Positions 22,502 to 46,294 of a stretch of DNA of 46,387 nucleotides are shown here, piece by piece. The notes beneath the pieces were generated by a model. It worked only from the letters and a program-made list of their open reading frames with translations, did not search any database and was not told where the DNA came from. The stretch covers positions 11,131-57,517 of the forward strand of contig NZ_JMIY01000002.1 of assembly GCF_000685155.1 (NCBI RefSeq). The letters run 5' to 3'. Origin of the DNA: Candidatus Methanoperedens nitratireducens. GTDB taxonomy: Archaea > Halobacteriota > Methanosarcinia > Methanosarcinales > Methanoperedenaceae. A program made the translations under genes and the position numbers. Position 1 is the first letter of the stretch, and every line of letters begins with the position of its first letter.

Positions 22502-22540
22502 TATTTTCACCCCCTTTTTATGTTGTTTATAAAATTTTAC

Positions 22541-22595: not shown

Positions 22596-22629
22596 TTCAT
22601 CTATTAATGCCGTTAATTAAGAATCTTGC

Positions 22630-22692
22630 CCCATACCATATATAACTTACTATATTTTTATAGTTATTAAAAATTAATTTTATGAAATATAT
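22630..22692 (-). promoter_or_regulatory. Conserved A/T-rich promoter block, array gene 1
   Basis: This block shares ACTATATTTTTATA and TTAAAAATTAATTTTATGA with blocks upstream of array genes 3 and 4 (about 25315-25366 and 26667-26716). TATA-like sequences on the minus strand make it the likely promoter. The rest of 22596-22868 shows nothing further except the next terminator. Confidence 0.5.
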
Positions 22693-22776
22693 TCCCGTAC
22701 AAAACTGTCCCTTGTACAGGATACTTAAGAACGAAAATATCGTATCTGCTTTTGAAACAAAGGCCAATAAAAGAAT

Positions 22777-22798
22777 AGAGGAAGGCGAACCTTCCTCT
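22777..22798 (-). terminator. Hairpin terminator of secreted gene 2
   Basis: A 9-bp perfect hairpin (AGAGGAAGG, arms at 22777-22785 and 22790-22798) lies about 70 bases past gene 2. The U-run is weaker than at the gene 1 terminator. Confidence 0.6.
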
Positions 22799-22868
22799 AA
22801 AATCCACATGTACAAGCTATACGGACAGTTCCTATAATCAGACTAATCAAGGTTGCGCTCATGCACTT

Positions 22869-23621
22869 CTAACGTCTGACCAGGCGACGCTCGGATATGC
22901 GACGCTCTAACAAGTCCTGACGATCAATCAGGTCCAGACGATCGACCAGGTCCGTACGTTCGACAAGGCTTATACGCTCTCGCCCGACCAGATCGATCTG
23001 GTCGAACAGGTCATCAAGTTCCCGCACGTTCAGGGTTACAAGCCTATCCAGGCGATCACGTTGCCGCACGTCCAGCCTCTCACGCTGTTCCAGGCGTTCT
23101 AACAGTCTCTCACGTTCCCTCAAGTTCAGCCTAAAGCGATCGGATAGTACTCCACGCTCACGCTCTAACAGGTCAGCACGCCGCCCAAGGAAACCGCGTT
23201 CCAGCCCGAACAGTCCTACACGCTCCTCTATGTCCAGTTCCCTGATATCACGCTCTAGTACGCTTGTACGCTCACGCTCGAACACGTCCACATGTTCGTC
23301 CAGAAGACTGCGCTGTTGATCGATCAATCTCCGACGCTCTCTCAGGAACCCACGTGTCCCTACGTCCAGAGACAACTCTTCGAACTCGGACAGTCTGGCA
23401 AAATCACGCCCGAATCGATCCACACGTGCGCTCAGGAAACTACGTTCCTGCTCAAACGTTCTCGCACGCGCCTGTGCTATATCACCAAATCTATCACTCA
23501 CACGCACACGCACGGTCGGGTTGTTATTATCGTTATCGTCGTTGTTTATGTCAGCCATTGCAGGCAGTGTTATTCCTGATACAGCAGATACCAGTAACGC
23601 CAATATTAATATTTTTTTCAC
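22869..23621 (-). CDS. Secreted Arg/Glu/Leu-rich coiled-coil protein (array gene 2)
   Basis: This protein has about 250 residues with a signal peptide (KKILILALLVSAVSGITLP, cleavage after AMA). A short Asp/Asn-rich stretch (NNDDNDNNN) follows, then over 200 residues of R-, E-, D- and L-rich helix with a repeated LxxRxRxxL/LERERxxL texture (for example LLERERGVLSDRFRLNLRE). It lacks Cys, Trp, Pro-rich and enzyme-like parts. It looks like a long extracellular coiled coil, and a similar helix forms the C-terminal half of gene 3. The start is the GTG at 23621, which matches the array's shared ribosome site; GTG at 23630 is in frame. I know no homologue or function. Confidence 0.7.
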   Translation of the reverse strand: MKKILILALLVSAVSGITLPAMADINNDDNDNNNPTVRVRVSDRFGDIAQARARTFEQERSFLSARVDRFGRDFARLSEFEELSLDVGTRGFLRERRRLIDQQRSLLDEHVDVFERERTSVLERDIRELDIEERVGLFGLERGFLGRRADLLERERGVLSDRFRLNLRERERLLERLEQRERLDVRQRDRLDRLVTLNVRELDDLFDQIDLVGRERISLVERTDLVDRLDLIDRQDLLERRISERRLVRR

Positions 23622-23653
23622 TATTTTCACCCCCTCTCATGTTATTTATGTTC

Positions 23654-23680
23654 TACCCGGGATTTTAACTTAACCGGGTA
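23654..23680 (-). other. 7-bp hairpin in leader of array gene 2
   Basis: TACCCGG (23654-23660) and CCGGGTA (23674-23680) pair perfectly around a 13-base A/T loop, directly next to the tRNA-like element on its gene-proximal side. A shorter version (CCCGG/CCGGG, 25112-25129) sits in the same place before gene 3. Confidence 0.6.
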
Positions 23681-23736
23681 AATACGCCCCCGGGTTCGAA
23701 CCCGGTCATCGGCCCACAGATCCCGACAGGCGTATT
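23681..23736 (-). ncRNA. tRNA-like element in leader of array gene 2
   Basis: Read on the minus strand, this 56-base element folds as a three-way junction. The closing stem is 8 bp (AATACGCC with GGCGTATT). A 4-bp arm (TCGG/CCGA) has a 10-base loop containing ATCTGTG. A 5-bp arm (CCGGG/CCCGG) has the canonical T-loop TTCGAAC. Acceptor and T-arm dimensions match tRNA, but only one further arm is present and there is no anticodon-sized loop, so it is not a functional tRNA. It lies about 60 bases before the GTG start. It could be a cis-regulatory RNA, a processing signal for RNase P/Z, or part of a mobile repeat. Confidence 0.55.
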
Positions 23737-23899
23737 GGAGATAATATTTCTCCTACAAATATGATTTTCTATCCACTTGATACATTTAGTTTTCGGTGAG
23801 TGCTAGAACTCACTTAGAATAATCCAGGTCTATGTAAAATAAAAGCCCGGGTATTCAGATTATTTTTGCTGCGGAACATGGGAAGTTACTAAAATAGCA

Positions 23900-23919
23900 G
23901 AGGAAGATTCATCTTCCTC
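23900..23919 (-). terminator. Hairpin terminator of secreted gene 3
   Basis: GAGGAAGAT and ATCTTCCTC pair over 9 bp with almost no loop, about 70 bases past gene 3. The flanking bases match the gene 1 terminator (AAACCTTTG on the plus strand). Confidence 0.65.
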
Positions 23920-23988
23920 CAAACCTTTGTTGTTCTATCCTGAAGCATGCCACCTCATACATCGTTCTCAGATAATCATTTCTTATGA

Positions 23989-25038
23989 TCATTTAAGATC
24001 ATCCAGGAGATCATGCTCCCGATCGAATAGTCTCTCACGATGTCTCAGGAAATCACGTTCTCTATCGCTCAGGTCTTCAATCTGCTCTATCATATCCTCA
24101 AGCTGCTCGATCAGATCATCATGCTGTTTCAGGATATCACGTTCCCTATCGACCAGATCATCACGCAGTCTTAGGAAATCACGCCTGCTATCGATCAGAT
24201 CATCACGATCAAGATCAACCAGGAGATTACCCAGGAGACCACGTTCCTGTCTGATCAGTCTTCCACGCTGTCTCAGGATATCACGTTCCTTATCGATCAG
24301 GTCATCAAGTTCCTGCTCTCTCAGGATATCACGATCCAGATCATCAAGGATATCACGCTCCAGCTCGAACAGTCTATCACGCTCTCTCAGGGTATCACGT
24401 ACCTTCTCGATCCGCTCTCTCTGTCTCTCACGTACCCTGTCATCCAGGTCATCACGGTCCAGATCAAGCTGCTCGATGAATCTCTCGCGCTCTATCAGGA
24501 TATCAAGTTCCTGCTCTCTCAGGGTCTCACGCTCCCTCAGGATCTCACGTACCCTGTCGTCCAGATCATCACGTTCCAGATCAAGATCATCCAGGACATC
24601 ACGCTCCAGATCGATCAGGATATCGCGTTCACGCTGGACACGCCCTCTCAGGGTCTCACGTTCGAACTCATCCACGTTTGAACTCCCACGATCATCAACA
24701 TGTGAACTCCCACGTTCATCCACGTTTGAGTTCTCACGCTCTTCTACGTTTGAATTCTCAACTTCACCTACATCTGAACTCTCACTCGTTTCTACGTTTG
24801 AGTCCTCACGTTCGTTTACATTTGAATTCCCACTCGCTCCTACGTTTGAATTCTCACTCGTTTCTACATTTGAACTCTCAGTATTGTCTATGTCTGAATT
24901 CTCAAGTTCGTCTACGTTTCTATGCTCGTCCACGTTCTCGTTCCCATTGGCGTTACCATTATCTACTTCAGCCATTGCAGGCAGTGTTATTCCCACCATG
25001 GCAGATACTAGCAATGCCAATATCAGTAATTTTCGCAC
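23989..25038 (-). CDS. Secreted octapeptide-repeat plus coiled-coil protein (array gene 3)
   Basis: This 349-residue protein has three parts. A signal peptide (residues 1-23, ending LPAMA) and an Asn-rich linker come first. Residues 47-126 are ten octapeptides of the form [NSD]S[ND]Vxxx[EG] (NSDIDNTE, SSNVETSE, NSNVNERE and so on). Residues 127-349 are a charged coiled coil with repeated LERDILDDLDRD-type heptads. The first half matches gene 4 in register, and the second half resembles gene 2, so the protein looks like a recombinant of the two modules. The GTG start follows GGGGGCGAACATA. It is likely an extracellular structural or adhesive protein; the function is not established. Confidence 0.72.
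   Translation of the reverse strand: MRKLLILALLVSAMVGITLPAMAEVDNGNANGNENVDEHRNVDELENSDIDNTESSNVETSENSNVGASGNSNVNEREDSNVETSESSDVGEVENSNVEERENSNVDERGSSHVDDRGSSNVDEFERETLRGRVQRERDILIDLERDVLDDLDLERDDLDDRVREILRERETLREQELDILIERERFIEQLDLDRDDLDDRVRERQRERIEKVRDTLRERDRLFELERDILDDLDRDILREQELDDLIDKERDILRQRGRLIRQERGLLGNLLVDLDRDDLIDSRRDFLRLRDDLVDRERDILKQHDDLIEQLEDMIEQIEDLSDRERDFLRHRERLFDREHDLLDDLK
24661..24900 (-). repeat. Octapeptide-coding tandem repeat in array gene 3
   Basis: Ten in-frame units of 24 bp code for [NSD]S[ND]Vxxx[EG]. Units differ mainly in the three variable positions, and the SNV core is constant. Confidence 0.85.
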
Positions 25039-25131
25039 TATGTTCGCCCCCTTGTATGTTGTTTATATTGTTCTATCTGTTTATACTGTTCTACTTGCTT
25101 GTACTGTTCTACCCGGCATTAAAACCGGGCC

Positions 25132-25189
25132 AATGCGCCCCCGGGGCTCGAACCCGGCCATTCGGCTCACAGATTCCGATAGGCGTATA
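25132..25189 (-). ncRNA. tRNA-like element in leader of array gene 3
   Basis: This is a second copy of the element before gene 2. On the minus strand it has the closing stem ATACGCC/GGCGCAT (one A-C mismatch), the TCGG/CCGA arm with loop AATCTGTGAG, and the T-like arm CCGGG/CCCGG with a T-loop of TTCGAGC type. It is followed by the CCCGG/CCGGG hairpin (25112-25129). Array gene 4 has matching sequence on both sides but lacks about 144 bp containing this element. The A-C mismatch would be a G-U pair on the opposite strand, so orientation is not fully settled. Confidence 0.55.
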
Positions 25190-25254
25190 GAAGGTAATAT
25201 TCCATGATATATACCCGGGGCCTTTCATGAGTTCATTCAATCAAAGCCATCAAG

Positions 25255-25366
25255 ATTTAACTGAAGATACCCCCATATCCGTTAACTTGACCTTGTTAAC
25301 TAGGTAATTTCCTCATGGTATATATACATTACTATATTTTATACTATTTAAAAATTAATTTTATGA
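25255..25366 (-). promoter_or_regulatory. Conserved promoter and upper leader, array gene 3
   Basis: This segment aligns nearly base for base with 26618-26716 upstream of gene 4. It includes TTGACCTTGTTAACTAGGTAAT, then a TATATATACATTACTATATTTTATA stretch with TATA-like boxes on the minus strand, then AAAAATTAATTTT. I read it as promoter plus start of the leader. Confidence 0.55.
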
Positions 25367-25392
25367 GATATATCTTCCTCTACTTGAATAGC

Positions 25393-25414
25393 AGAGGAAG
25401 ATTTACCTTTCTCT
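25393..25414 (-). terminator. Hairpin terminator of secreted gene 4
   Basis: AGAGGAAG (25393-25400) pairs with CTTTCTCT (25407-25414) with one mismatch. It lies 180 bases past the annotated stop of gene 4 but only about 50 bases past the stop of the frame-shifted tail at 25463, which suggests that the original gene was longer. Confidence 0.55.
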
Positions 25415-25462
25415 AAATTTTTGCTCTTTTTTCTATAGTAATGAGGCTACACCTATAATGAT

Positions 25463-25598
25463 CTCACATGGGTGTTCGTTCCATATGGATCATCCACATG
25501 CTCAATCTCATGCAGGCAGTTTCTATATCACGCTCATCTATGTTCTCATGATAAACTCTGGTGCTTTGAATTAATATATCGATATTCTTCGTATTATC
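25463..25598 (-). pseudogene. Frame-shifted 3' tail of array gene 4
   Basis: After the gene 4 stop, the neighbouring frame reads on for about 45 codons without a stop (FDNTKNIDILIQSTRVYHEN, then IDERDIETAC and so on). One fewer T in the four-T run at the gene's end would join the two frames. The tail ends about 50 bases before the terminator hairpin, the normal spacing in this array. Either a one-base mutation or a sequencing error explains this. Confidence 0.45.
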
Positions 25599-26556
25599 AA
25601 AAGATTTTATCTAAAGATTTAATTTTATCTAAAATTTTCGTCAAAATACCATAGTCTACGTCTGAATTTTCATATTTGTATACGCTTGAATTCTCACTCT
25701 TGTCTACGTTCGAATTTACAAATTTGTCTACTTTTGGATTCTCACGCTTATCTATGCTTGAATTCCCAGGTTTGTCCACACTATTTGGATTTTCAGATTT
25801 TTCTGAGCTTGAATTTCCAGGTTCGTCCACATTATTTGGATTTTCAGATTTTCCTGAGCTTGAATTCCCAGGCTCATCTACATCTGAACTCTCACTCGTT
25901 TCTACGTTTGAATTCTCACTTGTTTCTACGTTTGAATTCTCACGTTCACCTACATCTGAACTCTCACTCGTTTCTACGTTTGAATTTTCACGCTCATTTA
26001 CGTTTGAATTCCCATTCTCCTTCACGTTTGAACTCTCACGTTCACCTACATCTGAACTCTCACTCGTTTCTACATTTGAGTCCTCACGTTTGTTTACGTT
26101 TGAATTCCCATTCTCCTTCACGTTTGAACTCTCACTCGTTTCTACGTTTGAATTTTCATGATCATTTACGTTTGAATTTTCACGTTCACCTACATCTGAA
26201 CTCTCACTCGTTTCTACGTTTGAACTCTCACGCTCATTTACGTTTGAATTCCCATTCTCCTTCACGTTTGAATTCTCATGTTCACCTACATCTGAACTCT
26301 CACTCGTTTCTACATTTGAACTCTCACGCTCTTCTACGTTTGAGTCCTCTCGTTCGTTTACGTTTGAATTTCCAATCTCCTTCACGTTTGGACTCTCAAC
26401 CCTGTCTATGTCTGAATTCTTAAGTTCATCTACGTTTCCATACTTATCCACGTTCTTGTATTCATCGACATTATTCTTGACCACTCCAGCCATTGCAGGC
26501 AATGTTATTCCCACCATGGCAGATACTAGCAATGTCAATATTAGTAATTTTCGCAC
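25597..26556 (-). CDS. Secreted octapeptide-repeat protein (array gene 4)
   Basis: This 319-residue protein has a signal peptide nearly identical to gene 3 (residues 1-23) and a short Asn/Asp/Tyr linker. Residues 47-230 are 23 uninterrupted octapeptides of the form [NSD]S[ND]Vxxx[EG]. Four-unit blocks recur (NSNVKENG, NSNVNERE, SSNVETSE, SSDVGERE). From 231 on, the repeat drifts to a Pro-containing form (GNSSSEKSENPNSVDKPG). There is no Cys or aromatic cluster. Strict period-8 spacing of Val with small polar neighbours suggests a solenoid or extended surface fibre. The gene lacks the tRNA-like leader found before genes 2 and 3, and a one-base frameshift probably removed its last about 45 residues. 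Confidence 0.72.
   Translation of the reverse strand: MRKLLILTLLVSAMVGITLPAMAGVVKNNVDEYKNVDKYGNVDELKNSDIDRVESPNVKEIGNSNVNEREDSNVEERESSNVETSESSDVGEHENSNVKENGNSNVNERESSNVETSESSDVGERENSNVNDHENSNVETSESSNVKENGNSNVNKREDSNVETSESSDVGERESSNVKENGNSNVNERENSNVETSESSDVGERENSNVETSENSNVETSESSDVDEPGNSSSGKSENPNNVDEPGNSSSEKSENPNSVDKPGNSSIDKRENPKVDKFVNSNVDKSENSSVYKYENSDVDYGILTKILDKIKSLDKIF
25867..26418 (-). repeat. Octapeptide-coding tandem repeat in array gene 4
   Basis: There are 23 in-frame 24-bp units without a gap, organised partly as 96-bp blocks of four units (clear at residues 95-126, 143-174 and 175-206). The block structure indicates expansion by unequal recombination. Confidence 0.85.
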
Positions 26557-26716: not shown

Positions 26717-26906
26717 TCTATATATAGTATTCTCTATCCACTTTATACATCTAGTTTTCGGTGAACGAGCCCATCGCAGCGACAAGCCCATTCCCTGCTG
26801 GCTCTTGCATATTAGGCCAGGTTTAAAAGTTTTAAGTAATCATTGCTTTAATTTGTATTTTATAAACCACAACCTAAATAATCAAGGAGCTTCTAATCAA
26901 CCATTA

Positions 26907-26951
26907 CTTTACACTTAACGTAAACATATATACTTTACATCGATTGTAACG
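26907..26951 (+). promoter_or_regulatory. ccmE promoter with two CTTTAC-N7-GTAAAG-type operators
   Basis: Two palindromes flank a TATA box. Site 1 (26907-26925) is CTTTAC ACTTAAC GTAAAC and site 2 (26933-26951) is CTTTAC ATCGATT GTAACG, 26 bases apart. ATATATA lies between them (about 26926-26932). A bound repressor would cover the TATA box. Single copies occur at 33455 and 38697. Confidence 0.65.
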
Positions 26952-26988
26952 GTAATAACGTGTATGAAGTGTAAATGAGGTGGCATAA

Positions 26989-27396
26989 GTGAACAGAAAG
27001 CAAAAAAACATGCTTGGTATCGGGGTTGTAGCAGTATCGATAATCTATCTGAGCGCGCTGAGTTTCAGCAACGCCCTCTCATTCTACTATGAAGTAGGTG
27101 AATTTGTCGAGCTGGCAGATTCACTGGATGGAAAAGTTGTCAATGTAAATGGTACCATATTAAAAAATTCGACTATATGGGAACCTGAGAAGGCAAGACT
27201 CACATTCAAACTGGGGGACGACAGCGCCACTATCACAGTGGTATCGAATGAGGGAATGCCGGGCAATTATAAAGAGGAAATCCCGGCAGTGGTGACCGGC
27301 TATTTTATAAACGGCACTTTCCAGGCAAACCAGGTTATCACAAAATGCCCTTCAAAATACGGGGAACTCGATCACGGTGACCATGATGAAACATAA
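26989..27396 (+). CDS. ccmE: Cytochrome c maturation haem chaperone CcmE (CxxxY type)
   Basis: CcmE holds haem covalently outside the membrane and passes it to apocytochromes through CcmF. This 135-residue protein has an N-terminal anchor (residues about 8-30) and an OB-fold domain (FVELADSLDGKVVNVNGTI, GMPGNYKEEIPAVVTGYF). The haem-binding motif is KCPSKYG, that is Cys119-xxx-Tyr123. This is the CxxxY form known from archaea and Desulfovibrio rather than the HxxxY of E. coli. A His/Asp tail (DHGDHDET) follows. The GTG start has GAGGTGG seven bases upstream. It is the first gene of the ccm operon, directly behind the double operator. Confidence 0.92.
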   Translation: MNRKQKNMLGIGVVAVSIIYLSALSFSNALSFYYEVGEFVELADSLDGKVVNVNGTILKNSTIWEPEKARLTFKLGDDSATITVVSNEGMPGNYKEEIPAVVTGYFINGTFQANQVITKCPSKYGELDHGDHDET

Positions 27397-27408: not shown

Positions 27409-29415
27409 ATGGAACTAGGAGAAACAACGTTAGTAATCGCATTGATATTGAGCGTATATGCGATTGCTGCACACATCTTTGGGATATGGAAAAAGAAAAA
27501 TGAACTTTTCGATAGTGCCAGGATCGCAATCATCGCAATTGCAGTGCTTCTCACCATCGCATCTATCTGGCTTTTTAACCTGTTCATCACCCGCAATTTC
27601 CAGTATGAATATGTTGCTCTATACAGCAGTCTTGATCTACCAATGGTCTATACTATCTCCGCATTCTGGGCCGGGGCCGATGGTTCATTACTGCTCTGGG
27701 CATGGCTGATAGCCATCTATATTGCCATGATCGCAGTGAGAGGGAAATCCTATGATAACCTGATAAAACATGCAATGCCTGTCATCCTTGTCACTCTTGC
27801 CTATTTCCTCTACATGATGCTGACAGTGTCCCGTCCTTTCAGGATGCTTGATTTTATTCCTGTGGATGGAAACGGCTTAAACCCGCTTCTTCAGGATCCG
27901 GGCATGCTCTTCCATCCCACTACGCTTTTCTGGGGTTATGCCGGGGCAATAATCCCATTTGCACTCATGATCGCAGGGATCTATCTTGCAGATGATACAT
28001 GGACATACCGTGCAAGACGCTGGGCACTGTGGGCATGGCTTGGATTAACCCTGGGCAATATGTTCGGGAGCTACTGGGCATACACTGTGCTCAACTGGGG
28101 CGGGTTCTGGGGATGGGACCCTGTTGAGAACGCCTCCTTCCTTCCATGGCTCACCCTGACAGCATTCTATCACAGCACTATGATACAGGAGCGCAAAGGA
28201 GGTATGAAGTTCTGGAATATCCTGCTTATACTGCTCACATGGGAACTCGTGGTATACGGAACCCTGCTCACGCGAAGCGGGATAATCAGCTCGGTCCATA
28301 CATTCGGAGAATCCACTACCGCCCCTTATTATATCAACTATATGATTGTGGTGCTGGCAGCTACACTCATACTTGTGGCGTGGAAATACAACTCGATACA
28401 GAGCAAGAAAGTCTTTGAATCCTTCGTTTCACGGGAAGCAAGTTTCCTATACAATAACTGGATATTTATGGCATCCACAGCCTCGGTTCTCTGGGGAACG
28501 ACGTATCCTCTGCTCTCAGAGGCCTTCCGCGGCTACAAGGTGATGGTCGGCCCGAGCTTCTACAACCAGGTGAACGTGCCGCTTGGTATAGCACTTCTTT
28601 TCCTCATGGGCATATGTCCTCTTATAGCCTGGAGGAGGGCATCAGTATCGCACCTCCAGAGGAACTTCACCATGCCCCTTGCGACAGCAGTAGGTGTAAC
28701 GGCTATTGCATTTGTCTTCGGGATACGTGATTTTTATGCCCAGATTGTAGTCGCAGGCAGTGTACTTGTAATAGCCACCCATCTTGTAGATGTATCCAAG
28801 ATCGTGAACAGGCAGAAAAAGCTTGAGGATAGAGGATACCTGAAGAATTTCTCAAAAGCGTTCTGGAATAACCGCAGGACGTTCGGCGGTTACCTGTGCC
28901 ATATTGCGATCCTGATGATAATAGTCAGCGCTGCAGGAGCTGTAGTATATGAGAAAGAAGGGACCTTTAATATGAGAATCGGCGACACATCCAGCGTCGG
29001 TAGCTATGAGTTCCAGCTTACCAGGGTAGACCAGTATATGAAAAGTAACAGACAGGTAACTGCGGCTCTATTTGATGTTTATAAGAATGGTGAGCTGATT
29101 CTGACCGATGCTAATGCGCTCATGTATTATTATGCGAGGCAGGATAATACTAATGTCAAACCCATGGCCTATCGCATTGGTCTGGATGACCTGTATTTCT
29201 CAGCCCAGGCTATTACACCTGACCACGCTACACTTAAAATCAAGGTAATGCCTGTTATGTTCCTTATGTGGCTCGGTGGATTCTATGTACTCATCCTTGG
29301 GATCCTGATATGCGTATCAACTGTTATACCCATAAGACAGAGAAGATTATCTGCTGATATAAATGTAAAGGAAAGTATGAAAAAAATGACAACGGAGAGT
29401 GTACATGATATATAA
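27409..29415 (+). CDS. ccmF: Cytochrome c haem lyase subunit CcmF
   Basis: This 668-residue membrane protein has about 15 helices and carries out haem ligation with CcmH. The WWD motif is complete at residues about 229-243 (NWGGFWGWDPVENASF). The N-terminal conserved WAGADGSLLLWAW lies near residue 85, and HPTTLFWGYAG and FHSTM-like histidine segments are candidate haem ligands. A soluble region near residues 520-625 precedes a last membrane helix. It starts 12 bases after ccmE, and its 3' end overlaps the first ccmH. CcmA, B and C are not in the window and must be encoded elsewhere. Confidence 0.95.
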   Translation: MELGETTLVIALILSVYAIAAHIFGIWKKKNELFDSARIAIIAIAVLLTIASIWLFNLFITRNFQYEYVALYSSLDLPMVYTISAFWAGADGSLLLWAWLIAIYIAMIAVRGKSYDNLIKHAMPVILVTLAYFLYMMLTVSRPFRMLDFIPVDGNGLNPLLQDPGMLFHPTTLFWGYAGAIIPFALMIAGIYLADDTWTYRARRWALWAWLGLTLGNMFGSYWAYTVLNWGGFWGWDPVENASFLPWLTLTAFYHSTMIQERKGGMKFWNILLILLTWELVVYGTLLTRSGIISSVHTFGESTTAPYYINYMIVVLAATLILVAWKYNSIQSKKVFESFVSREASFLYNNWIFMASTASVLWGTTYPLLSEAFRGYKVMVGPSFYNQVNVPLGIALLFLMGICPLIAWRRASVSHLQRNFTMPLATAVGVTAIAFVFGIRDFYAQIVVAGSVLVIATHLVDVSKIVNRQKKLEDRGYLKNFSKAFWNNRRTFGGYLCHIAILMIIVSAAGAVVYEKEGTFNMRIGDTSSVGSYEFQLTRVDQYMKSNRQVTAALFDVYKNGELILTDANALMYYYARQDNTNVKPMAYRIGLDDLYFSAQAITPDHATLKIKVMPVMFLMWLGGFYVLILGILICVSTVIPIRQRRLSADINVKESMKKMTTESVHDI

Positions 29416-29821
29416 AATAATTGCAATACTGTTCTTCATGACTGTACTGGCAATGCCGGTAATAGCCGTAACTGAAGAGGAGATTACATCAAACCTGAAC
29501 TGTCCTGATGTGGGAGGGTGCACTATGATCGCCGCCGATTGCTCATGTGAGAGCGCTCTTGAACTGAAAGGTAAAGTCAGGGCGATGCTTGATCAGGGAC
29601 TATCGCAGAAACAAATATACGATAGGCTCACTGCAGAATACGGGAGAGAGATCCTGGCCACACCGCCCAAGGAAGGATTTGACTGGATAGTATGGCTTGC
29701 CCTGCCTGCCGGGATCATTGTGGGCGGGGTTGTTGTTTATAAGATAAGCAGGAAAAAAATGGATGAGGATGAGATCTTTGAATATGAGTACCAAAAATTC
29801 TTGCAGGAGCGTGAAAAATAA
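29405..29821 (+). CDS. ccmH: CcmH paralogue 1 with unusual Cys spacing
   Basis: This is a CcmH-like protein of 138 residues: signal/anchor, small three-helix thiol domain (residues about 22-75), second membrane helix (about 95-113) and charged tail. The fold signature EEEITSNLNCP, LDQGLSQKQIYDRLTAEYGREIL is clear. The expected CxxC (or CPxC) is replaced by Cys33-PDVGG-Cys39, with a further Cys46-Ser-Cys48. This spacing differs from the second CcmH in the same operon, so its redox role may differ or it may prefer another apocytochrome. The ATG at 29405 has GGAG nine bases upstream and overlaps the end of ccmF. Its stop overlaps the next start. Confidence 0.85.
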   Translation: MIYKIIAILFFMTVLAMPVIAVTEEEITSNLNCPDVGGCTMIAADCSCESALELKGKVRAMLDQGLSQKQIYDRLTAEYGREILATPPKEGFDWIVWLALPAGIIVGGVVVYKISRKKMDEDEIFEYEYQKFLQEREK

Positions 29822-31516: not shown

Positions 31517-31966
31517 ATGAAGAGAATGGAGCAATCAAAATTAATGCTGAGGATGGTTTTACTGTTTATTCTTTTAATACCAGCAATTCTTCCGGTTCAT
31601 GCTACAGATGAAGATATAACCTCTGGTCTTATATGCCCGTGCGAATGCGCTATGGTTATATCAACGTGCGACTGCCCCACTGCAATACAGATCAAAAAAG
31701 AGATCATTCAGATGAAGAATGACGGCTTTTCAGAGAAGCAGGTATTCTCAGCTCTTCAAGCAGAATACGGAAGGGGAATCCTGGCGCATCCTGAGAAACC
31801 AGTACCACTGTGGATAGCGGGTATACCATTAACCCTTATATTAATGTTTATAGGGTATATGATGACAAGAAAACCAAATCCGGATATTATACCTGATAAA
31901 AAGAGATACGAACAGCGGTTTGAGGAAGAATACAGGAAATTTGTTTCCGAGATGGAGGAACCGTGA
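31517..31966 (+). CDS. ccmH: CcmH paralogue 2 (CPCEC type)
   Basis: This second CcmH-like protein has 149 residues: anchor, thiol domain, second membrane helix (about 98-115) and charged tail. The Cys region reads GLICPCECAMVISTCDCP, giving Cys40, 42, 44, 51 and 53, a Cys-dense version of the CcmH redox site. The helix pair with IKKEIIQMKNDGFSEKQVF and AEYGRGILAHP follows as in other CcmH proteins. It should keep apocytochrome CxxCH cysteines reduced. The start could also be the ATG three codons on. Its stop codon overlaps the GTG of its partner gene, repeating the ccmH1-partner arrangement. Confidence 0.88.
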   Translation: MKRMEQSKLMLRMVLLFILLIPAILPVHATDEDITSGLICPCECAMVISTCDCPTAIQIKKEIIQMKNDGFSEKQVFSALQAEYGRGILAHPEKPVPLWIAGIPLTLILMFIGYMMTRKPNPDIIPDKKRYEQRFEEEYRKFVSEMEEP

Positions 31967-32973: not shown

Positions 32974-33447
32974 ATGAAACTTAAATATATGTTCAGTGTC
33001 ATTGCGGCTGTCGCAGTCCTGGTATTCGTGTACACAGTGCTGGTCAGCGGATTTAATGGTTTTAATGCGATAGATGAGATACCTCAGGAGAATATCACAA
33101 ATAAAATTGGACTTCCCGAATTCACTCAAAAAACTGTGCGTGTTGAAGAAGCTTACATTTATGCGATGATGAATCAGGATAAGGTCATGTACCTTGCCTG
33201 CTACTGTGGCTGTGCCGGAATGCAGCACTCAGATAAGCTTCTTAAACACGGGAGCCTGAAGGACTGCTATATACGGCCGGATGGAAGCTTCGAGCCCCAT
33301 GCCTCAGAATGCAAGTTATGCAATGATATAACACTTGAGGCAAAGGAACTCATTGATAAAGGGTATTCACTAAAAGATGTCAGAAAAATCATTGATGATG
33401 AATACTCAGGCAGGGGTGTTGGAACAGATACGTCACTTCCGCCATAG
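32974..33447 (+). CDS. PCYCGC-motif (DUF) membrane-anchored protein
   Basis: This 157-residue protein has one N-terminal membrane helix (residues about 7-27). Its extracellular domain resembles the family named after its PCYCGC motif. Here it is Ala75-Cys-Tyr-Cys-Gly-Cys80 (LACYCGCAGMQHSDKLLKHG), followed by KDCYI and SECKLCND, seven cysteines in all, plus His residues. The pattern suits metal or disulfide chemistry. A GGAG site lies ahead of the ATG. As the last gene before the next operator-controlled promoter it probably ends the ccm operon, which suggests a role in haem, copper or thiol handling during cytochrome maturation. Confidence 0.75.
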   Translation: MKLKYMFSVIAAVAVLVFVYTVLVSGFNGFNAIDEIPQENITNKIGLPEFTQKTVRVEEAYIYAMMNQDKVMYLACYCGCAGMQHSDKLLKHGSLKDCYIRPDGSFEPHASECKLCNDITLEAKELIDKGYSLKDVRKIIDDEYSGRGVGTDTSLPP

Positions 33448-33473
33448 GTATATACTTTACGCTTACCGTAAAG
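33448..33473 (+). promoter_or_regulatory. Promoter with CTTTAC-N7-GTAAAG operator, lipoprotein operon
   Basis: TATATA (33449-33454) runs directly into the perfect palindrome CTTTAC GCTTACC GTAAAG (33455-33473), 53 bases before the lipoprotein ATG. The TATA-operator junction is the same as at the second ccmE site. Confidence 0.65.
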
Positions 33474-33525
33474 TACAAGTAGATTACATGCATTAAAAAA
33501 ATAAAGAAGATAAAGAGGTATATAA

Positions 33526-33933
33526 ATGAGGATATCAGGAATTATAATAGCATTGCTGGTTCTGATTACAGCAGCGGTCAGCGGATGTTTATCAGGTGAT
33601 GAGCCACCTGATGAAAAACAGGTTACAGGAGGTACAGCAGAGCAGAGAGAGAACTCAGAGGCTGGAGTAACAATCGTAGCAGTGTATCTTGGAGATAATG
33701 CCTTTAATATTAACCTGGATACCCACTCTGGCTCTCTGGATTATGAGATGGATAAGGTAGCTTTTATACGCGACAGTAAAGGGAATATCATCAAACCAGA
33801 GGTATGGGACGGAGGAATAGGAGGGCATCATTTTAGCGGTACTCTGAGATTCCCTGAATTTGATGACAGCGCTGGCTTTGAGCTTGTGATCCAGGACGTT
33901 GCAGATGTGAAAGAGAGGATCTTCAGGTGGTAA
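33526..33933 (+). CDS. Small predicted lipoprotein
   Basis: This 135-residue protein has a lipoprotein signal (AAVSGC, Cys21 the likely lipidated residue), a Glu/Thr-rich linker (22-45) and a compact beta-rich domain (46-135). That domain contains VTIVAVYLGDNAFNINLDTH, KVAFIRDSKGNIIKPEVW and GGIGGHHFSGTLRFPEF. The domain resembles small beta-sandwich proteins found with membrane metal or redox modules, but I cannot name the family. It opens a five-gene unit behind a CTTTAC-N7-GTAAAG operator, so it is likely expressed together with cytochrome maturation. Confidence 0.7.
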   Translation: MRISGIIIALLVLITAAVSGCLSGDEPPDEKQVTGGTAEQRENSEAGVTIVAVYLGDNAFNINLDTHSGSLDYEMDKVAFIRDSKGNIIKPEVWDGGIGGHHFSGTLRFPEFDDSAGFELVIQDVADVKERIFRW

Positions 33934-33939
33934 GATAAA

Positions 33940-34422
33940 ATGTCAGAAAAACTGGGTATCAAAAAGCTTTTTAAAAATCCTTTTGTTTTTGGAGCGAGCA
34001 TCGGGATACTTGTAATACTTTTCAATATCTCGATTGCTTCACTGGCAGAGGGCTCTTTAAGGAGCGGATACTCAGTATTACTCAGCAACGGTATATTCAC
34101 ATACCTTATTCCCCTGGCAGTTGGCGTGCAGATGGGGCTTTTCAGACATCACAGAAATATAACAGCCGAGAAAAGATTATGCGGCTCTGAAAAAGTAGGC
34201 ATAACAGGCTCGGCTACCTCTTCACTAACAATGGTAGCATGCTGTCTGCACCATGTGAGTGATCTATTGCCTGCAGTTGGCTTTATTCTTGCAGCATCAT
34301 CATTCCTCACTGAATATAAAAACGTGATCTTCATTATCGGATTATCAGCCAATATGGCAGGGAGTGCCTATATTGCAAGAGCAATCTTAAAAGACAGATC
34401 AATTCAACAGGTGGTTAAATGA
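33940..34422 (+). CDS. Four-helix membrane protein with CCxHH motif
   Basis: This 160-residue integral membrane protein has four hydrophobic segments (about 15-38, 48-68, 92-122, 127-148). In the third, MVACCLHHVSDLLPAVGF places Cys101-Cys102 and His104-His105 at or near the membrane, a likely metal- or haem-binding site. A His-containing loop (FRHHRNITAEKRLCG) precedes it. It recalls small metal transporters, but I know no named match. It starts six bases after the lipoprotein gene and its stop overlaps the next start, so the unit is an operon. Confidence 0.7.
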   Translation: MSEKLGIKKLFKNPFVFGASIGILVILFNISIASLAEGSLRSGYSVLLSNGIFTYLIPLAVGVQMGLFRHHRNITAEKRLCGSEKVGITGSATSSLTMVACCLHHVSDLLPAVGFILAASSFLTEYKNVIFIIGLSANMAGSAYIARAILKDRSIQQVVK

Positions 34423-35012
34423 GAAAGGAAATCTATGCAGTTTTAATCGTGGCCGCTTTATTGATACTATATTTTTCATTTCTGTCAGAGACCAGAAAAG
34501 GCATATTCACCGAAAGACTGGGCGACATGACCCTGACGGCGTATGAGACAGAGAGTGCTGCTATACAAGAGATCTCCAATATATACGCTTTAAGAGACAT
34601 ACCTCTTGCACAGGGGTACTATGCGGTGTACAGCGGCAGTAAGGGTACCATGCGTATGTGGGTTGCCGAGCCGACTGACCATAACATTGCAAATGACGCA
34701 TTCAATTCTATGAACTCAATGCTGGGAGGCTCTACAGGTCATGAGGAACATGAATATTCCGGCGATGTGGGTCAGACAGAATCGCATGGCAGGCACAGCG
34801 ACGCGGACATGGCGAATAGCACAATACCTGTGAAGTTAGATTTTATGGAATTCGTTAAGCCTGAAGTGTACATGATAAAAATAAACGATGTATACAACTA
34901 TTATTATTTCAAAATGAATTACAGGATGGGACGGATCTACTGGATATCTTTTGATTCACCTGATACAGATTATCAGTTATCTATCGTGAAGCAGGCAGTG
35001 ATGGACATATAG
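34419..35012 (+). CDS. Membrane-anchored protein with His-rich insert (paralogue A)
   Basis: This 197-residue protein has an N-terminal anchor (residues 5-24) and an extracellular alpha/beta domain. GIFTERLGDMTLTAYETES near the start and GRIYWISFDSPDTDYQLSIVKQAV at the end match the same positions in the next gene. Between them is an insert rich in His, Glu and Asp (HEEHEYSGD, ESHGRHSDAD) absent from the paralogue, which may bind metal. I do not recognise the family. The four-base overlap with the upstream CCxHH membrane protein suggests tight co-expression. Confidence 0.65.
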   Translation: MRKEIYAVLIVAALLILYFSFLSETRKGIFTERLGDMTLTAYETESAAIQEISNIYALRDIPLAQGYYAVYSGSKGTMRMWVAEPTDHNIANDAFNSMNSMLGGSTGHEEHEYSGDVGQTESHGRHSDADMANSTIPVKLDFMEFVKPEVYMIKINDVYNYYYFKMNYRMGRIYWISFDSPDTDYQLSIVKQAVMDI

Positions 35013-35021
35013 GAGGAATAC

Positions 35022-35552
35022 ATGAGAAAAAACAAATCCGAACTGTATCTTGCACTGTTCATAATCGCTGTATTAGCAGGAACCGTGCTTCTTTATACTC
35101 AAATGCAGGAGAAAAATGCTTACGGCATGTTCCCTGAGAAACTTGGCGATATGAGCCTTTCTCTCTACAAAGAAGGGGATGTTGCCATGACAGAGGTAAA
35201 AAGATTGCACGGCAACAGTCCGAATGTAAAAGTTGAGAGCGCCTACATTGCAGATTACAGAGGCAGTATGGGCAGCAAAGCCAAATTCTGGGTATCAGAA
35301 TCTAAAAACAGCGAGGAAGCAGCATCGCTTCTTGAATTGATGAACAGCAGTGTGGGAAAAACCGGTATGTTCAGCGAATCCACAAACAGCACCATAGAAG
35401 GTATTAAAGTTTATTTTGTTTCAGGGCTGCCGGAGCTTGGTCTGTATCATTACTTCTATGCTAAGGACAAAAGGGTATTCTGGATTCAGATAGACAACCC
35501 GGATGAAGCTTACAGGAAAAATATAGTGAGAGAATCTATAAAACTGATCTAA
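35022..35552 (+). CDS. Membrane-anchored protein (paralogue B)
   Basis: This 176-residue paralogue of the preceding gene has an N-terminal anchor (about 8-25), then GMFPEKLGDMSLSLYKEGD, a central domain with YRGSMGSKAKFWVSE, and KRVFWIQIDNPDEAYRKNIV at the C-terminus. It lacks the His-rich insert. AGGAGG sits six bases before the ATG. The duplicate pair follows the lipoprotein and CCxHH protein, and all are predicted outside or in the membrane, so they may form one complex. The function is unknown. Confidence 0.65.
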   Translation: MRKNKSELYLALFIIAVLAGTVLLYTQMQEKNAYGMFPEKLGDMSLSLYKEGDVAMTEVKRLHGNSPNVKVESAYIADYRGSMGSKAKFWVSESKNSEEAASLLELMNSSVGKTGMFSESTNSTIEGIKVYFVSGLPELGLYHYFYAKDKRVFWIQIDNPDEAYRKNIVRESIKLI

Positions 35553-37872: not shown

Positions 37873-38661
37873 TCAATTAAATCCCACCAGCCTGTTAAAT
37901 TTTACTTTCATGATCTTCCAGGTATCATCGATCATATCCGAGATCTCAGGCAGGGTTTTAAGAACCATATAGGAGACCAGTATCAATGCCATTACCGAGC
38001 CGATTTTAGTGATGATATGCTCTGAGATATGGAAACTCTCCTCAGCAGTGCCAAACCATGCAAACCCGTAGGCTGAGGCAGTAAAAAGCAACCTCTGCAG
38101 ATTGAGGATATAAATAACCGGCACTGAGATCATGAACGCCTTGAACTTTCGCACTGATGGCGCCTCTGCGGCTGAGATAACGCCTGTGAACAAGGCTATG
38201 CTCTCAATAGCAGTACATGCAAGGATTATCTCAACTGCAAGACCATTAACTGCAAGCTGGTTCCATGCTACCTTATCAACAGGAAATCCAACCCTCTCAA
38301 TAACCCAGACAGTCTGGTCTGTAACCACGGATATTATCCCTGTGTTTAAGAAATCCACCTCTGCGAACAGGAAATAGATCAAACCTCCAACAGAGGCTGC
38401 CCTGGATAGCGGAATAATTATATCTTTATTATCATCTCTTGCCTGAAATGCAATATATGCAATGAAAAGGCATACTGCCGCAGCTACAATAACTAAAAAG
38501 GCATTAAAATAATCCTGAATCCCGATATAATCCAGAGGCTTCGAGAACCAGTGGATTGACAGGAAGAGCCAGCCAAGACCCGCAAGTATGAACCTGTAGG
38601 GTGTTGAGCGTAAGGATGCTATAACCAGAAGTCCAAGGGCAACCCAGAGTACTGCGATCAT
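37873..38661 (-). CDS. Archaeosortase/exosortase family protein
   Basis: This is a 262-residue membrane protein with about seven helices. The transpeptidase-type catalytic residues are in order: Cys149 in EIILACTAIESIALFTG, Arg190 in YILNLQRLLF and His215 in HISEHIITKIGS. Archaeosortases cut and anchor surface proteins that carry a C-terminal sorting signal. I see no protein in the window with a clear PGF-CTERM or PEF-CTERM tail. The promoter has a CTTTAC-N7-GTAAAG palindrome identical in layout to those of the ccm and lipoprotein operons, so the same regulator likely controls it. DUF63 follows in the same direction. Confidence 0.85.
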   Translation of the reverse strand: MIAVLWVALGLLVIASLRSTPYRFILAGLGWLFLSIHWFSKPLDYIGIQDYFNAFLVIVAAAVCLFIAYIAFQARDDNKDIIIPLSRAASVGGLIYFLFAEVDFLNTGIISVVTDQTVWVIERVGFPVDKVAWNQLAVNGLAVEIILACTAIESIALFTGVISAAEAPSVRKFKAFMISVPVIYILNLQRLLFTASAYGFAWFGTAEESFHISEHIITKIGSVMALILVSYMVLKTLPEISDMIDDTWKIMKVKFNRLVGFN

Positions 38662-38696
38662 TGATTTTTATCCTCTATTGATGGATGTAATAAATA

Positions 38697-38721
38697 CTTT
38701 ACGCCCTTTGTAAAGATATAA
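38697..38721 (-). promoter_or_regulatory. Promoter with CTTTAC-N7-GTAAAG operator, archaeosortase gene
   Basis: The palindrome (38697-38715; outer six bases CTTTAC and GTAAAG, seven between) lies 36 bases before the ATG. On the minus strand ATTATAT sits immediately upstream of it, giving the same TATA-then-palindrome junction as at the two plus-strand promoters. Confidence 0.65.
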
Positions 38722-43127: not shown

Positions 43128-44060
43128 ATGGTGGTAGAAAATCCATTTCTGAATAGAGTGATGATCAAGAACCCTGATGAGTTCTTCGGACGCAAAAATG
43201 AGCTTCGGGCAATCTTCAGCAGGCTCTCGAATCTTCAAAGTTCTGATGTTTATGGAGAACGGAAAATTGGAAAATCTTCTTTACTATACTACATTTTCTT
43301 AAAAATACCTGAGAAATTAGGCAATGATTATAAGATCGCGTATATTGATCTGCAAGGTGCTGAGTGCCAAACAGTTGAGGGGTTTCTAAGATACTGCCTT
43401 AGAGAAGTAGGTCTTAATCCAGAAGTTATCAATCCATCAAATAGTCATAATAAAAATTTGATGGTCTTTTCAGAATCAGTAAGAGAATTAAGGAAGAAAA
43501 ATAAGCCTGTGCTTCTAATAGACGAATTTGAACGGATTATTAAAAGACCCGAATTTGATAATGATTTCTTTGATACAATGAGAAGTCTTGGAAATAATGG
43601 TGATATTGCATATGTTACCGCTTCTTTACACTCTTTAAAAACGCTATGTATAGAAGGGCATTTTACTTCACCTTTATATAATATTTTCTCCGAAGTTCCT
43701 CTGGGGCTGCTCTCTCCTGAAGAGACTATCGAATTTTTATCAGCAAAAAGAGAAGGTATTGAGTTTACAGAAAAAGAGATCGAGTTCATCAAAGAGATTG
43801 CCAATAATAATCCACTCCACCTGCAAATCGCCTGTTATCATGTTTTTGAGAATAAGAGACATAAATGGGATGAGAAGAAATTAAGAAAAAAAATTGAAAA
43901 AGAGTTTAAAAATTTTGATGATAAATGGGCGAGAAAAGAACGGGGCATTATAAAAGGGGGCAAGTCGCTTTTTAATTGGATCAAAGAGCGTACAAGTATA
44001 GAGATCGGCAGCAAAGGCGTAACTTTAAATAGCAGTGAAAAGGCGAATAGACCAAAATGA
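43128..44060 (+). CDS. P-loop ATPase, STAND/archaeal ATPase-like (twin-ATPase gene 1)
   Basis: This 310-residue soluble ATPase starts with the NPFLNRVMIKNPDEFFGRKNE element typical of STAND-like and archaeal ATPases (split across residues 5-25). It has Walker A GERKIGKSS (43-51), Walker B PVLLIDEFERI (127-137), and a sensor-like AYVTASLHS. A C-terminal lid domain contains PLGLLSPEETIEFLSA and NNPLHLQIACYHVFE. It closely parallels the C-terminal domain of the next gene, whose start overlaps its stop (ATGA). No effector domain is fused. A sensor or regulatory role with the membrane partner is likely, possibly in stress or defence. Confidence 0.78.
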   Translation: MVVENPFLNRVMIKNPDEFFGRKNELRAIFSRLSNLQSSDVYGERKIGKSSLLYYIFLKIPEKLGNDYKIAYIDLQGAECQTVEGFLRYCLREVGLNPEVINPSNSHNKNLMVFSESVRELRKKNKPVLLIDEFERIIKRPEFDNDFFDTMRSLGNNGDIAYVTASLHSLKTLCIEGHFTSPLYNIFSEVPLGLLSPEETIEFLSAKREGIEFTEKEIEFIKEIANNNPLHLQIACYHVFENKRHKWDEKKLRKKIEKEFKNFDDKWARKERGIIKGGKSLFNWIKERTSIEIGSKGVTLNSSEKANRPK

Positions 44061-46294
44061 GCATAACTAAAAATGAAATAAAGGTTTCTTTTCACCAGAT
44101 ATATCAGTGCGTATTCAAACCCATTACTTTTACTGAGTCCATAGAGAATCTGGATAAAAAAAGTAAAATAAAATTGTTATTTAAACTATCTTTTTATAGT
44201 CTTATAATTTCAATTGTAATTGATACACTTATTGGAACTATAATCTCTTATTTAGGATACAAGTTTGACTGGATAGGATTGTTATTATTCATTTCATTTG
44301 GCATTGCATTGGGCATTGCATGGGGCATTGGGTGGGGCATTGGGTGGGGCATTGCAGTGGGCATTGGATGGGGCATTGCAGGGGGCATTGCAGGAGGCAT
44401 TGCATTGGGCATTACAGGGGGCATTGCAGTGGACGTTGCATTGGGCATTGCAGGGGGCATTATAGGGGGCATTACAGTGGGCGTTGCAGTGGGCATTGCA
44501 GGGATCATTGCAGGAGGCATTGGATGGGGCATTGCAGTGGGCATTGCATTAGGCATTACAGTGGGCATTGCAGGAGGCATTGCAGGGAGTATTGCGTTTA
44601 TAGCTTCATATTTTAGAGTTTTTTATATTTTTCCTCAGTTGGTACAATACTGGCGTTTTAAAATTTTTGGACATGAACCATTTAGCCTGTTTAGGAATTC
44701 ACCCATTTACTGGGATGAAGTTATCGTAATGCCTCTTCCATTTTTGACCAATTTTCTTGTTTCGTTGGTAAATATAAATAGAAATGAAGGATTAAAAGAG
44801 GTTGAATTTGTATCATCTAAAAGACCAACACAAAGAAAAGCAGCATTTTCTGCTCTTTTAGAAATAACAATTCAGGATTTGAGTAGATTCAAAACTATAG
44901 AAGAAATAGCAGAAGTCTCAAATAACCTCTCTTTTATATCTGCTTTCAGAAGTTCTTTATCTGAAGAATTTAGCAGTGCTGTTAGGAATATAGAAGAGAT
45001 ATCTATCGATGCTAAAAGCTATCTAGATTCTACAAGCGACTATAATAAACTTAAAAATTTAAATGTTCTGGCAGATGACATAGATAAACTCAAGAAAACG
45101 TTAATCGCTACAAAGGGTCCTGTAGGATACAAGTTCCATTCAGTTGCAGAAAAATGGTTACAAATAATAAAAGAAGAAAATAACAAATTTATATGTCTTA
45201 AAAAAGATACATTCCAAGAAATCTCAAACCCCTATATCTTTGGAAATCCTGTGAGACCTGAGGATAAATCAAGATTATTTGTTGGTAGGAAGGACATTAT
45301 CAGAGAGATCGAATCAAATCTATCAAATATTTCTCAGAAGCCGACACTATTCTTATACGGACGAAGGAGAGTCGGCAAATCATCTGTACTGATCAATCTT
45401 CCAGGACATTTAGGCAAGCAGTATGCTTCCGCATATATCGACTGTCAGGATGCCAGAGCGAGAGAAAGCCCTGCTTCTTTCTGCTACAGCCTTTCAAGAT
45501 CGATATATAATTCACTGGGAGACAGGAGCGTTTCCTCAAAGCACCTGCCTTTTGAGTCGTTCCAAAAAAATCCTTTTACGGTACTCGGCGGCTGGTTTGA
45601 CGAGATTGAAAAAACGCTCGGCGCAGAGAATATGTTAGTGTTAATTACCTTCGATGAATATGAAAAATTAGAAGAATCAATACTCACAGGCGCTTTGTCT
45701 GTTGAAGTGCTCGATCAACTGCGTAATATTATACAGCATAGAAGGCATTTTGTTGTGTTAATCGCAGGGAGTAGAGAATTAAACGAGCTTAAATTAAACT
45801 GGTCGGATTATCTGATAAGCGCCAAAACGATAAAACTGGGCTATTTATCAGAGGATGATGCAAGAATACTGATCACCAATCCCATTGATGATTTCAGCTT
45901 AAATTACGAGGGCGGGGAAAAAGGAGAGGTCGTTAATAAGATAATAAATGTCACAAGCTGCCAGCCTTATCTGGTGCAGGCTTTATGCTTTGAGCTTGTT
46001 AACTATTTAAATTCACAGTGCAGGAGGGTAGCAGGGCTGGAGGATGTTGATATCGCCATAGAAAAGGTACTGGTTTCAGCAGAGAATTATTTCTATTATA
46101 TCTGGAACTCGGAATGCTCGGAGAACGAGAAAAAGTATCTTAAACGGCTTATAAATAATCTGCCGATAGATGGGGATGAAAAAGAGATTAATTCGCTTGT
46201 AAAGAAAGAGATTATTGAGAAAGCAGATGAAGGTTATAAGTTCAAAGTTGAATTAATGAAAAAGTGGATTGAAAAAAATAATTCAGGCTTTTGA
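44057..46294 (+). CDS. Membrane-anchored P-loop ATPase with GIAx repeats (twin-ATPase gene 2)
   Basis: This 745-residue protein has four parts. An N-terminal segment holds one or two hydrophobic helices (about 35-80). Residues 82-181 are 25 tetrapeptides of GIAx type, followed by a further helix (about 181-196). A helical linker region runs from about 200 to 390. The ATPase domain (395-745) has FVGRKDIIREIE, Walker A GRRRVGKSS (435-443), Walker B LVLITFDEYEKL with Asp533-Glu534, VVLIAGSRELNEL and LGYLSEDDARILITNP. The repeats look like a glycine-zipper membrane module. Overlap with gene 1 implies a two-ATPase complex at the membrane. The effector or signal is unknown. Confidence 0.78.
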   Translation: MSITKNEIKVSFHQIYQCVFKPITFTESIENLDKKSKIKLLFKLSFYSLIISIVIDTLIGTIISYLGYKFDWIGLLLFISFGIALGIAWGIGWGIGWGIAVGIGWGIAGGIAGGIALGITGGIAVDVALGIAGGIIGGITVGVAVGIAGIIAGGIGWGIAVGIALGITVGIAGGIAGSIAFIASYFRVFYIFPQLVQYWRFKIFGHEPFSLFRNSPIYWDEVIVMPLPFLTNFLVSLVNINRNEGLKEVEFVSSKRPTQRKAAFSALLEITIQDLSRFKTIEEIAEVSNNLSFISAFRSSLSEEFSSAVRNIEEISIDAKSYLDSTSDYNKLKNLNVLADDIDKLKKTLIATKGPVGYKFHSVAEKWLQIIKEENNKFICLKKDTFQEISNPYIFGNPVRPEDKSRLFVGRKDIIREIESNLSNISQKPTLFLYGRRRVGKSSVLINLPGHLGKQYASAYIDCQDARARESPASFCYSLSRSIYNSLGDRSVSSKHLPFESFQKNPFTVLGGWFDEIEKTLGAENMLVLITFDEYEKLEESILTGALSVEVLDQLRNIIQHRRHFVVLIAGSRELNELKLNWSDYLISAKTIKLGYLSEDDARILITNPIDDFSLNYEGGEKGEVVNKIINVTSCQPYLVQALCFELVNYLNSQCRRVAGLEDVDIAIEKVLVSAENYFYYIWNSECSENEKKYLKRLINNLPIDGDEKEINSLVKKEIIEKADEGYKFKVELMKKWIEKNNSGF
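44300..44599 (+). repeat. 12-bp in-frame minisatellite coding GIAx tetrapeptides
   Basis: There are 25 units of 12 bp, typically GGCATTGCANNG, coding GIA/GIG/GIT plus a variable Leu, Trp, Val or Gly. Spacing is exact, with no unit out of frame. Codon use (GGC ATT GCA) is nearly constant, consistent with recent slippage or recombination. Confidence 0.9.

Follow-up and report, generated by a model that had tools for sequence, protein, structure and literature searches.

A lipoprotein and a CCxHH membrane protein that share an operator with cytochrome c maturation genes in Methanoperedenaceae: candidate halves of a metal-handling device

A unit of four genes in the archaeon Candidatus Methanoperedens nitratireducens raises the question of what envelope proteins without a family name do behind the same operator as ccmE. 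We analyzed the surrounding 46,387 nucleotides (hereafter the window) of this 3.2-Mb genome, in which ccmE, ccmF, a gene for a CcmH-like protein, and then a gene for a PCYCGC-motif protein lie upstream of the unit (Table 1). The unit encodes a lipoprotein with a lipobox-like sequence (...AAVSGC), a membrane protein with a Cys-Cys-x-His-His motif (the CCxHH protein), and two paralogues, parA and parB, and its open reading frames are spaced by a 6-base gap, a 4-base overlap, and a 9-base gap. A first-pass annotation had called the four proteins unrecognized and tightly packed and had proposed a copper or haem-iron delivery or sensing complex for cytochrome assembly. The packing is as it described, and none of the four proteins matched Pfam or NCBIfam above the curated cut-offs or any Ccm family model of System I. 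No YHS, DUF2933, or P1B ATPase gene is present in the unit of this genome.

Table 1. Features of the window, with positions counted from its first base
Feature	Position	Strand	Remarks
Run of secreted-looking proteins	22172-26556	-	alike signal peptides, differing repeats (SNV-, DERE-, and Pro-Gly-Lys-type); judged by eye
Imperfect operator copy before ccmE	26905-26927	.	found by weight matrix; score 20.7
Second imperfect operator copy before ccmE	26931-26953	.	found by weight matrix; score 16.7
ccmE	26989-27396	+	
ccmF	27409-29415	+	PF16327, PF01578
Second CcmH-related copy	29399-29821		
CcmH-like protein	31517-31966	+	PF03918
PCYCGC-motif protein	32974-33447	+	PF13798; adjoins the operator upstream
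Operator	33453-33475	.	perfect palindrome of 23 bp, TACTTTACG-CTTAC-CGTAAAGTA; 50 bases 5' of the lipoprotein start; score 33.3
Lipoprotein	33526-33933	+	beta-sandwich domain (fold from a fused relative); invariant His in THS and GGHH (62/62)
CCxHH protein	33940-34422	+	four membrane helices, the second with an invariant Gln and the third with CCLHH (residues 101-105)
parA	34419-35012	+	single N-terminal membrane helix and PsbP/Mog1-like domain with His-rich insert (GHEEHEYSGDVGQTESHGRH)
parB	35022-35552	+	parA paralogue without the insert
Archaeosortase A	37873-38661	-	TIGR04125, E 7e-68
Operator-like site	38695-38717	.	34 bases before archaeosortase A; score 18.5
ATPase-like gene	43128-44060		adjoins the gene of the 745-aa repeat protein; judged by eye
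745-aa repeat protein	44057-46294		long (GGIAxGI)n membrane repeat and ATPase-like part; judged by eye

The family consensus of the operator is TACTTTAC-N7-GTAAAGTA. A search of the window at 3 mismatches returned two matches, as against none in shuffled sequences, and missed both sites before ccmE. A weight matrix built from the sites of other genomes gave four places in the window a score above 0, the two before ccmE among them, which agrees with the annotation's claim that the unit and ccmE share an operator; when the own genome was included in the matrix, the next-best place scored -1.1 and the top of 20 mononucleotide shuffles 10.7. In the own genome alone, the count at up to 3 mismatches (4 sites) was not above the control (5), so the reality of the operator is settled by the genus-wide search only. 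There, at up to 1 mismatch, we found 74 sites in 26 of the 31 genomes, compared with 8 for the reversed pattern used as control; all three sister-genus genomes contained sites (8 in total, control 0), and 24 genomes outside the family contained none (control 2). The operator is thus real and family-wide. Five genus genomes (G024, G011, G018, G029, and G001) have no site at up to 1 mismatch; G001 has a weaker one before a YHS gene (score 26.3), and none was found in the 8 kb around the unit of G024. Further sites in the own genome precede a CcdA gene (L113, 22.1) and a gene for a NapH-like His/Met-rich protein (L114, 28.3).

The genes behind the 74 sites fall into overlapping classes: 33 sites precede a unit of YHS, DUF2933, lipoprotein, CCxHH, or par genes, 26 thioredoxin or CcdA genes, 22 ccm-type genes, and 13 PCYCGC genes; PCYCGC relatives elsewhere stand under the same operator as the unit of the window. 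Altogether 72 of the 74 sites were assigned to regulon genes and two match nothing, a count with some circularity, as several of the references had been drawn from the neighborhoods of these very sites; those for ccmE, ccmF, the lipoprotein, and par, however, were taken from the window. In the sister genera, three of the seven sites fetched first (L188, L189, and L193) do not adjoin known regulon genes, and the eighth (L194, score 26.3) matched none of the references by blastp. Gene order is shared as well. The sister-genus genome G033 has the order ccmH-p307-PCYCGC-operator-lipoprotein-parA, which is that of the window except that the latter has the CCxHH gene between the last two, and an operator site precedes ccmE-ccmF in both G033 and G031. 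The order in G001 is ccmH1-carboxreg-ccmH2-p307-CcdA-PCYCGC-site-YHS-DUF2933-lipoprotein-CCxHH-parA-parB-parB. Through its operator and its synteny, the unit is linked to cytochrome c maturation in Methanoperedenaceae, and a single regulator presumably binds the operator.

Several observations were made beside these sites. The archaeosortase gene or the subsequent 302-aa gene adjoins the unit in seven loci (L008, L010, L012, L017, L019, L026, and L027). An ABC transporter ATPase gene follows the operator in L115, L116, L144, L145, L148, and L190 and is divergent from ccmE in L115, L116, and L144. Near the operator-controlled ccmE of L118 (1763-3023) are genes for a protein judged by eye to be Met-rich and for an FTR1-family iron permease. 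An M48-type peptidase gene follows the unit in a sister genus (L028 3084-3437), and a BlaI/CopY-type repressor lies near the unit in L179 (9760-10113); in some lineages, a pair of this kind might act as the missing sensor. In G033, the lipoprotein-par unit keeps the operator without a window-type CCxHH gene (L033 and L192), and a distant CCxHH gene lies nearby on the opposite strand.

We then asked which parts of the unit belong together. A search of 60 genomes, with the own one among them, found the CCxHH protein in 30, including 27 of the 31 in the genus, although absences in such genome counts are soft because many genomes are MAGs. At the 30 loci of these relatives, a lipoprotein gene adjoins in 28 and a par gene in 24. 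A contig scan yielded 304 confirmed CCxHH relatives, the best 80 of which were kept for analysis; they range over Woesearchaeota, Diapherotrites, Micrarchaeota, Archaeoglobus, Chloroflexi, Nitrospirae, Spirochaetes, Roizmanbacteria, and others, and thus include DPANN and CPR lineages. The scan pattern itself demanded M..CC.HH, so invariance of the motif in the scanned loci is not countable as conservation; in alignment A1, which holds relatives found by similarity alone and none from the pattern scan, the motif is kept in all eight rows. The lipoprotein profile of the genus matched 61 of the best 80 of the 304 loci, in 60 of them at most 300 bp from the CCxHH gene. Several loci end at contig edges; among those that extend 1 kb or more to either side, the lipoprotein domain lies within 300 bp in 50 of 64, and in the other 14 this profile found none at that distance. 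In 10 of the best 80 loci (L035, L041, L042, L046, L056, L058, L066, L068, L071, and L105) the lipoprotein and the CCxHH protein are fused into one polypeptide. Fusion and adjacency over this range argue that the two proteins act together. Furthermore, His67, His101, His102, and Gly105 (window lipoprotein numbering) are invariant in all 62 rows of alignment A7, whose rows were not chosen by the histidine motif, and the invariance of the three histidines makes it probable that the pair is one device. The core of the unit is the lipoprotein-CCxHH pair, with parA and parB as looser partners.

A Pfam scan of 83 CCxHH members gave scattered weak matches, the commonest being Cation_efflux (5/83, best E 0.001), and the same scan of 62 lipoprotein domains gave DUF5643 in seven (best 3e-5). 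Sequence searches of the PDB at E 1 returned no match for the membrane protein or for parA and parB and, for the lipoprotein, weak SUMO-type chance matches alone. Neither the CCxHH protein nor the lipoprotein domain matched in a plasmid collection, and none of the papers listed by the literature searches was relevant to these proteins.

A structure was modeled for the fused relative L035 (mean pLDDT 89.3, pTM 0.70) rather than for the pair in the window. It shows membrane-type helices at residues 4-27, 41-70, 78-103, and 116-140, an anchor helix at 156-183, and then the beta-sandwich; CCLHH (91-95) lies inside the third helix, THT is at 228, and GGHH is at 262. The CCLHH of the window protein also lies inside a hydrophobic stretch, and the annotation had rightly placed the motif in a membrane helix. 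By the positive-inside rule, the loop that joins helices 2 and 3, whose net charge is positive in 79 of 83 sequences, is probably cytoplasmic, which puts the beta domain outside.

Fold comparison, in which the list of matches was filled by the beta domain and the membrane part was barely probed, showed that the lipoprotein domain resembles many Ig-like domains. CrdA, a copper-binding copper resistance determinant of Helicobacter pylori, was among them (Z 9.9, rmsd 2.7, 94 aligned, 5% identity); 3fbq (Z 10.5) and further proteins without known function reach comparable scores, so the likeness in fold does not establish kinship with CrdA. Another candidate was the mercury import system MerT/MerP, in which a helix of a small membrane protein carries vicinal cysteines and a binding partner lies outside the membrane. 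The CCxHH protein is likewise small, with vicinal cysteines in a helix and an outside partner, and kinship with MerT (PF02411) was expected from the Cys-Cys helix. Profile comparison did not support it: hhalign gave a probability of 2% (E 0.025) with a MerT profile of only three near-identical sequences, and Pfam at E 0.05 matched MerT in none of the 83 CCxHH members. The three MerT sequences compared have no HH beside the Cys pair, MerP conserves cysteines whereas the partner lipoprotein here conserves histidines, and no mer gene was among the 25 commonest families of the sampled neighbors.

The genes around the relatives point to copper. Copper markers (YHS, DUF2933, DUF411, CsoR, and TRASH/PadR) are present in 38 of the best 80 of the 304 loci, and 26 of these 80 have a P1B ATPase carrying a CPC- or CPH-type motif. 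The density of the markers, whose references were partly picked from the neighbors themselves, falls steadily from 1.07 per 10 kb at 0-2.5 kb to 0.18 at 7.5-10 kb; that of the P1B ATPases falls less evenly from 0.42 to 0.04. The ccm genes, found in 18 of the same 80 loci, show a smaller fall (0.59 to 0.27). The mere presence of a P1B ATPase in a genome was dropped as copper evidence, being near universal: heavy-metal P1B ATPases matched in 45 of 45 carrier genomes but equally in 14 of 14 controls, which leaves their proximity as the sole informative feature. Pfam counts in a sample of neighbors (150 of 638 near and 150 of 381 far open reading frames) are small and suggestive: DUF5676 (4), CcmE, PadR, TRASH, and ICMT (3 each) near; Cytochrom_C_asm (three) and E1-E2 ATPase (two) far, neither of the latter being among the 25 near families shown. 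Within the genus, many loci have YHS and DUF2933 genes between the operator and the lipoprotein gene. A YHS domain is responsive to copper, according to the available part of one report (PMC4626032). DUF2933, ICMT-type methyltransferases, and P1B ATPases around many CCxHH relatives recall a copper cassette of Alteromonas, which, as far as the accessible text describes it, contains CopA, a cupredoxin, and then DUF2933 and isoprenylcysteine methyltransferase but not the lipoprotein-CCxHH pair (PMC8478169).

As the annotation had noted, an insert rich in His, Asp, and Glu sets parA apart from parB (29% identity, alignment A5); it spans about 30 residues and is also missing from the Chloroflexi relatives. 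Four histidines are present in the insert of 14 of 21 parA relatives (L006 counted by eye), and in four of the 21 (L010, L023, L025, and L027) methionines have largely replaced them, with one His left. Such His/Met exchange is usual among copper ligands. Most of the insert has a pLDDT under 50 in the parA model, and Foldseek at E 0.001 found no match for this model or that of L035. Relatives of the par proteins occur in 19 of the best 80 of the 304 loci, 10 of them within 1.2 kb, and are largely from Chloroflexi.

Taking these results together, we consider that the lipoprotein and the CCxHH protein together make up a single extracytoplasmic device that handles metal, most likely copper, and is wired into cytochrome c maturation, and we give this reading a probability of about 0.5. 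The two Cys and two His of the third membrane helix would bind a thiophilic metal, probably Cu(I), which would be passed to, or received from, the three-His site of the lipoprotein domain on the outer face, and the His- or Met-rich insert of parA may add binding capacity. Between the two metals that the annotation had offered, copper is the better, in view of the clustered P1B ATPases, YHS, DUF2933, DUF411, CsoR, and TRASH genes and the change from His to Met in the insert.

Haem iron would nevertheless suit the genomic setting if the CCxHH protein handled haem or haem iron and handed it to CcmE or CcmF. The operator is common to the unit, ccmE, and ccmF, and in two Archaeoglobus-type loci (L179 and L180) the lipoprotein-CCxHH pair leads directly into genes for a CcmH-like protein, CcmF, and another CcmH-like protein. 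Counting toward copper, genes for a His-rich P-type ATPase and the repressor lie near the pair in L179, and one for a DUF411 protein in L180. In three more genomes of the Archaeoglobus-containing family that have the pair (L181-L183), the 11-12 kb fetched contain no ccm genes. In the phylum, CcmE was detected in 71 of 157 genomes and the CCxHH protein in six, all of which have CcmE, a link that is weak because five of the six belong to one family; 65 of the 71 CcmE-bearing genomes gave no CCxHH match. In the carrier-genome test, which was given 45 of the 80 loci, a PF01578 protein was found in 21 genomes, and 24, many of the 45 being MAGs, have no detectable cytochrome-assembly protein. The general job of the pair is therefore probably not cytochrome assembly, and a role in it everywhere is unlikely; with copper-type genes as neighbors elsewhere, haem delivery is also unlikely in our view. 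Of the delivery or sensing complex for cytochrome assembly that the annotation had in mind, a metal-related unit under common control and in synteny with ccm thus stands, and a general assembly role is not supported. The pattern that the annotation had named as refuting, dispersed homologues without any ccm or metal genes nearby, is not what we found.

If copper is the metal, the unit might load a copper enzyme instead of removing copper. The same copper-type neighborhood would accommodate this, as would the cupredoxin gene upstream in L129, which lies there with a CcdA gene, and the open reading frame judged by eye to be similar in L131. We nonetheless regard such delivery as rather unlikely: the recurrent neighbors are exporters, repressors, and binding proteins, no cuproenzyme recurs among them in the surveys made, and some of the carriers are DPANN or CPR organisms whose genomes are very small. 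The Cys pair within a membrane helix, together with the thioredoxin and CcdA genes behind the operator, could instead suggest a CcdA-like thiol-disulfide relay in which the vicinal cysteines carry electrons across the membrane and keep apocytochrome CXXCH motifs reduced. The partner lipoprotein, however, conserves three histidines and no Cys pair, HH is as fixed as CC across the rows of A1, and CcdA is already in the same regulon, which makes such a relay improbable. Signaling of metal or redox state to the regulator of the operator by an extracytoplasmic sensing unit is more improbable still. Regulators do lie near some relatives, and parA resembles Mog1/PsbP-type extracytoplasmic domains (best the PknH sensor domain, Z 10.1, rmsd 3.1, 126 aligned; TM1622, Z 9.8; PsbP, about 6), but a common fold shows no function, and Pfam and NCBIfam found no signaling domain in any of the four proteins.

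A copper relay under a cytochrome-maturation operator explains both the copper-type neighbors elsewhere and the tie to ccm here. In Methanoperedenaceae, the unit belongs to a regulon with ccmE, ccmF, CcmH-like, thioredoxin/CcdA, and PCYCGC genes, and in these cells, which make many multihaem cytochromes, it would most likely shield exposed thiols in the cytochrome assembly line from copper. In a Rubrivivax mutant, too much copper is harmful to the assembly of cytochrome c, as stated in the available part of PMC6247083 (citing its reference 15); the accessible portion of PMC10874420 does not mention ccm. A Methanoperedens enrichment was inhibited by medium and high copper loads in a study whose available text tells of no copper-resistance genes (PMC11596795). 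Archaeal System I (ccmABCEF) shares regulon and synteny with the unit in the window, and the two accounts of it, in the parts accessible, mention neither the four proteins nor the operator (PMC9084895, PMC9012536). According to the latter account, ANME-2d has CcmH homologues that resemble the ones in Ferroglobus and Geoglobus; the lipoprotein-CCxHH pair is likewise present in the Archaeoglobus-containing family.

More tentatively, the pair may represent an undescribed copper relay of DPANN, CPR, Chloroflexi, Nitrospirae, and methane-oxidizing archaea that was captured into the cytochrome-maturation regulon in Methanoperedenaceae, so that protection would be switched on when cytochromes are built. 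Our results offer an initial clue to a protein pair that is widespread but has no family name, and they define a regulon centered on cytochrome c maturation in archaea that oxidize methane with nitrate, metals, or electrodes. Electron export by these archaea rests on multihaem cytochromes, and the finding bears on how such cytochromes are assembled and shielded from toxic metals.
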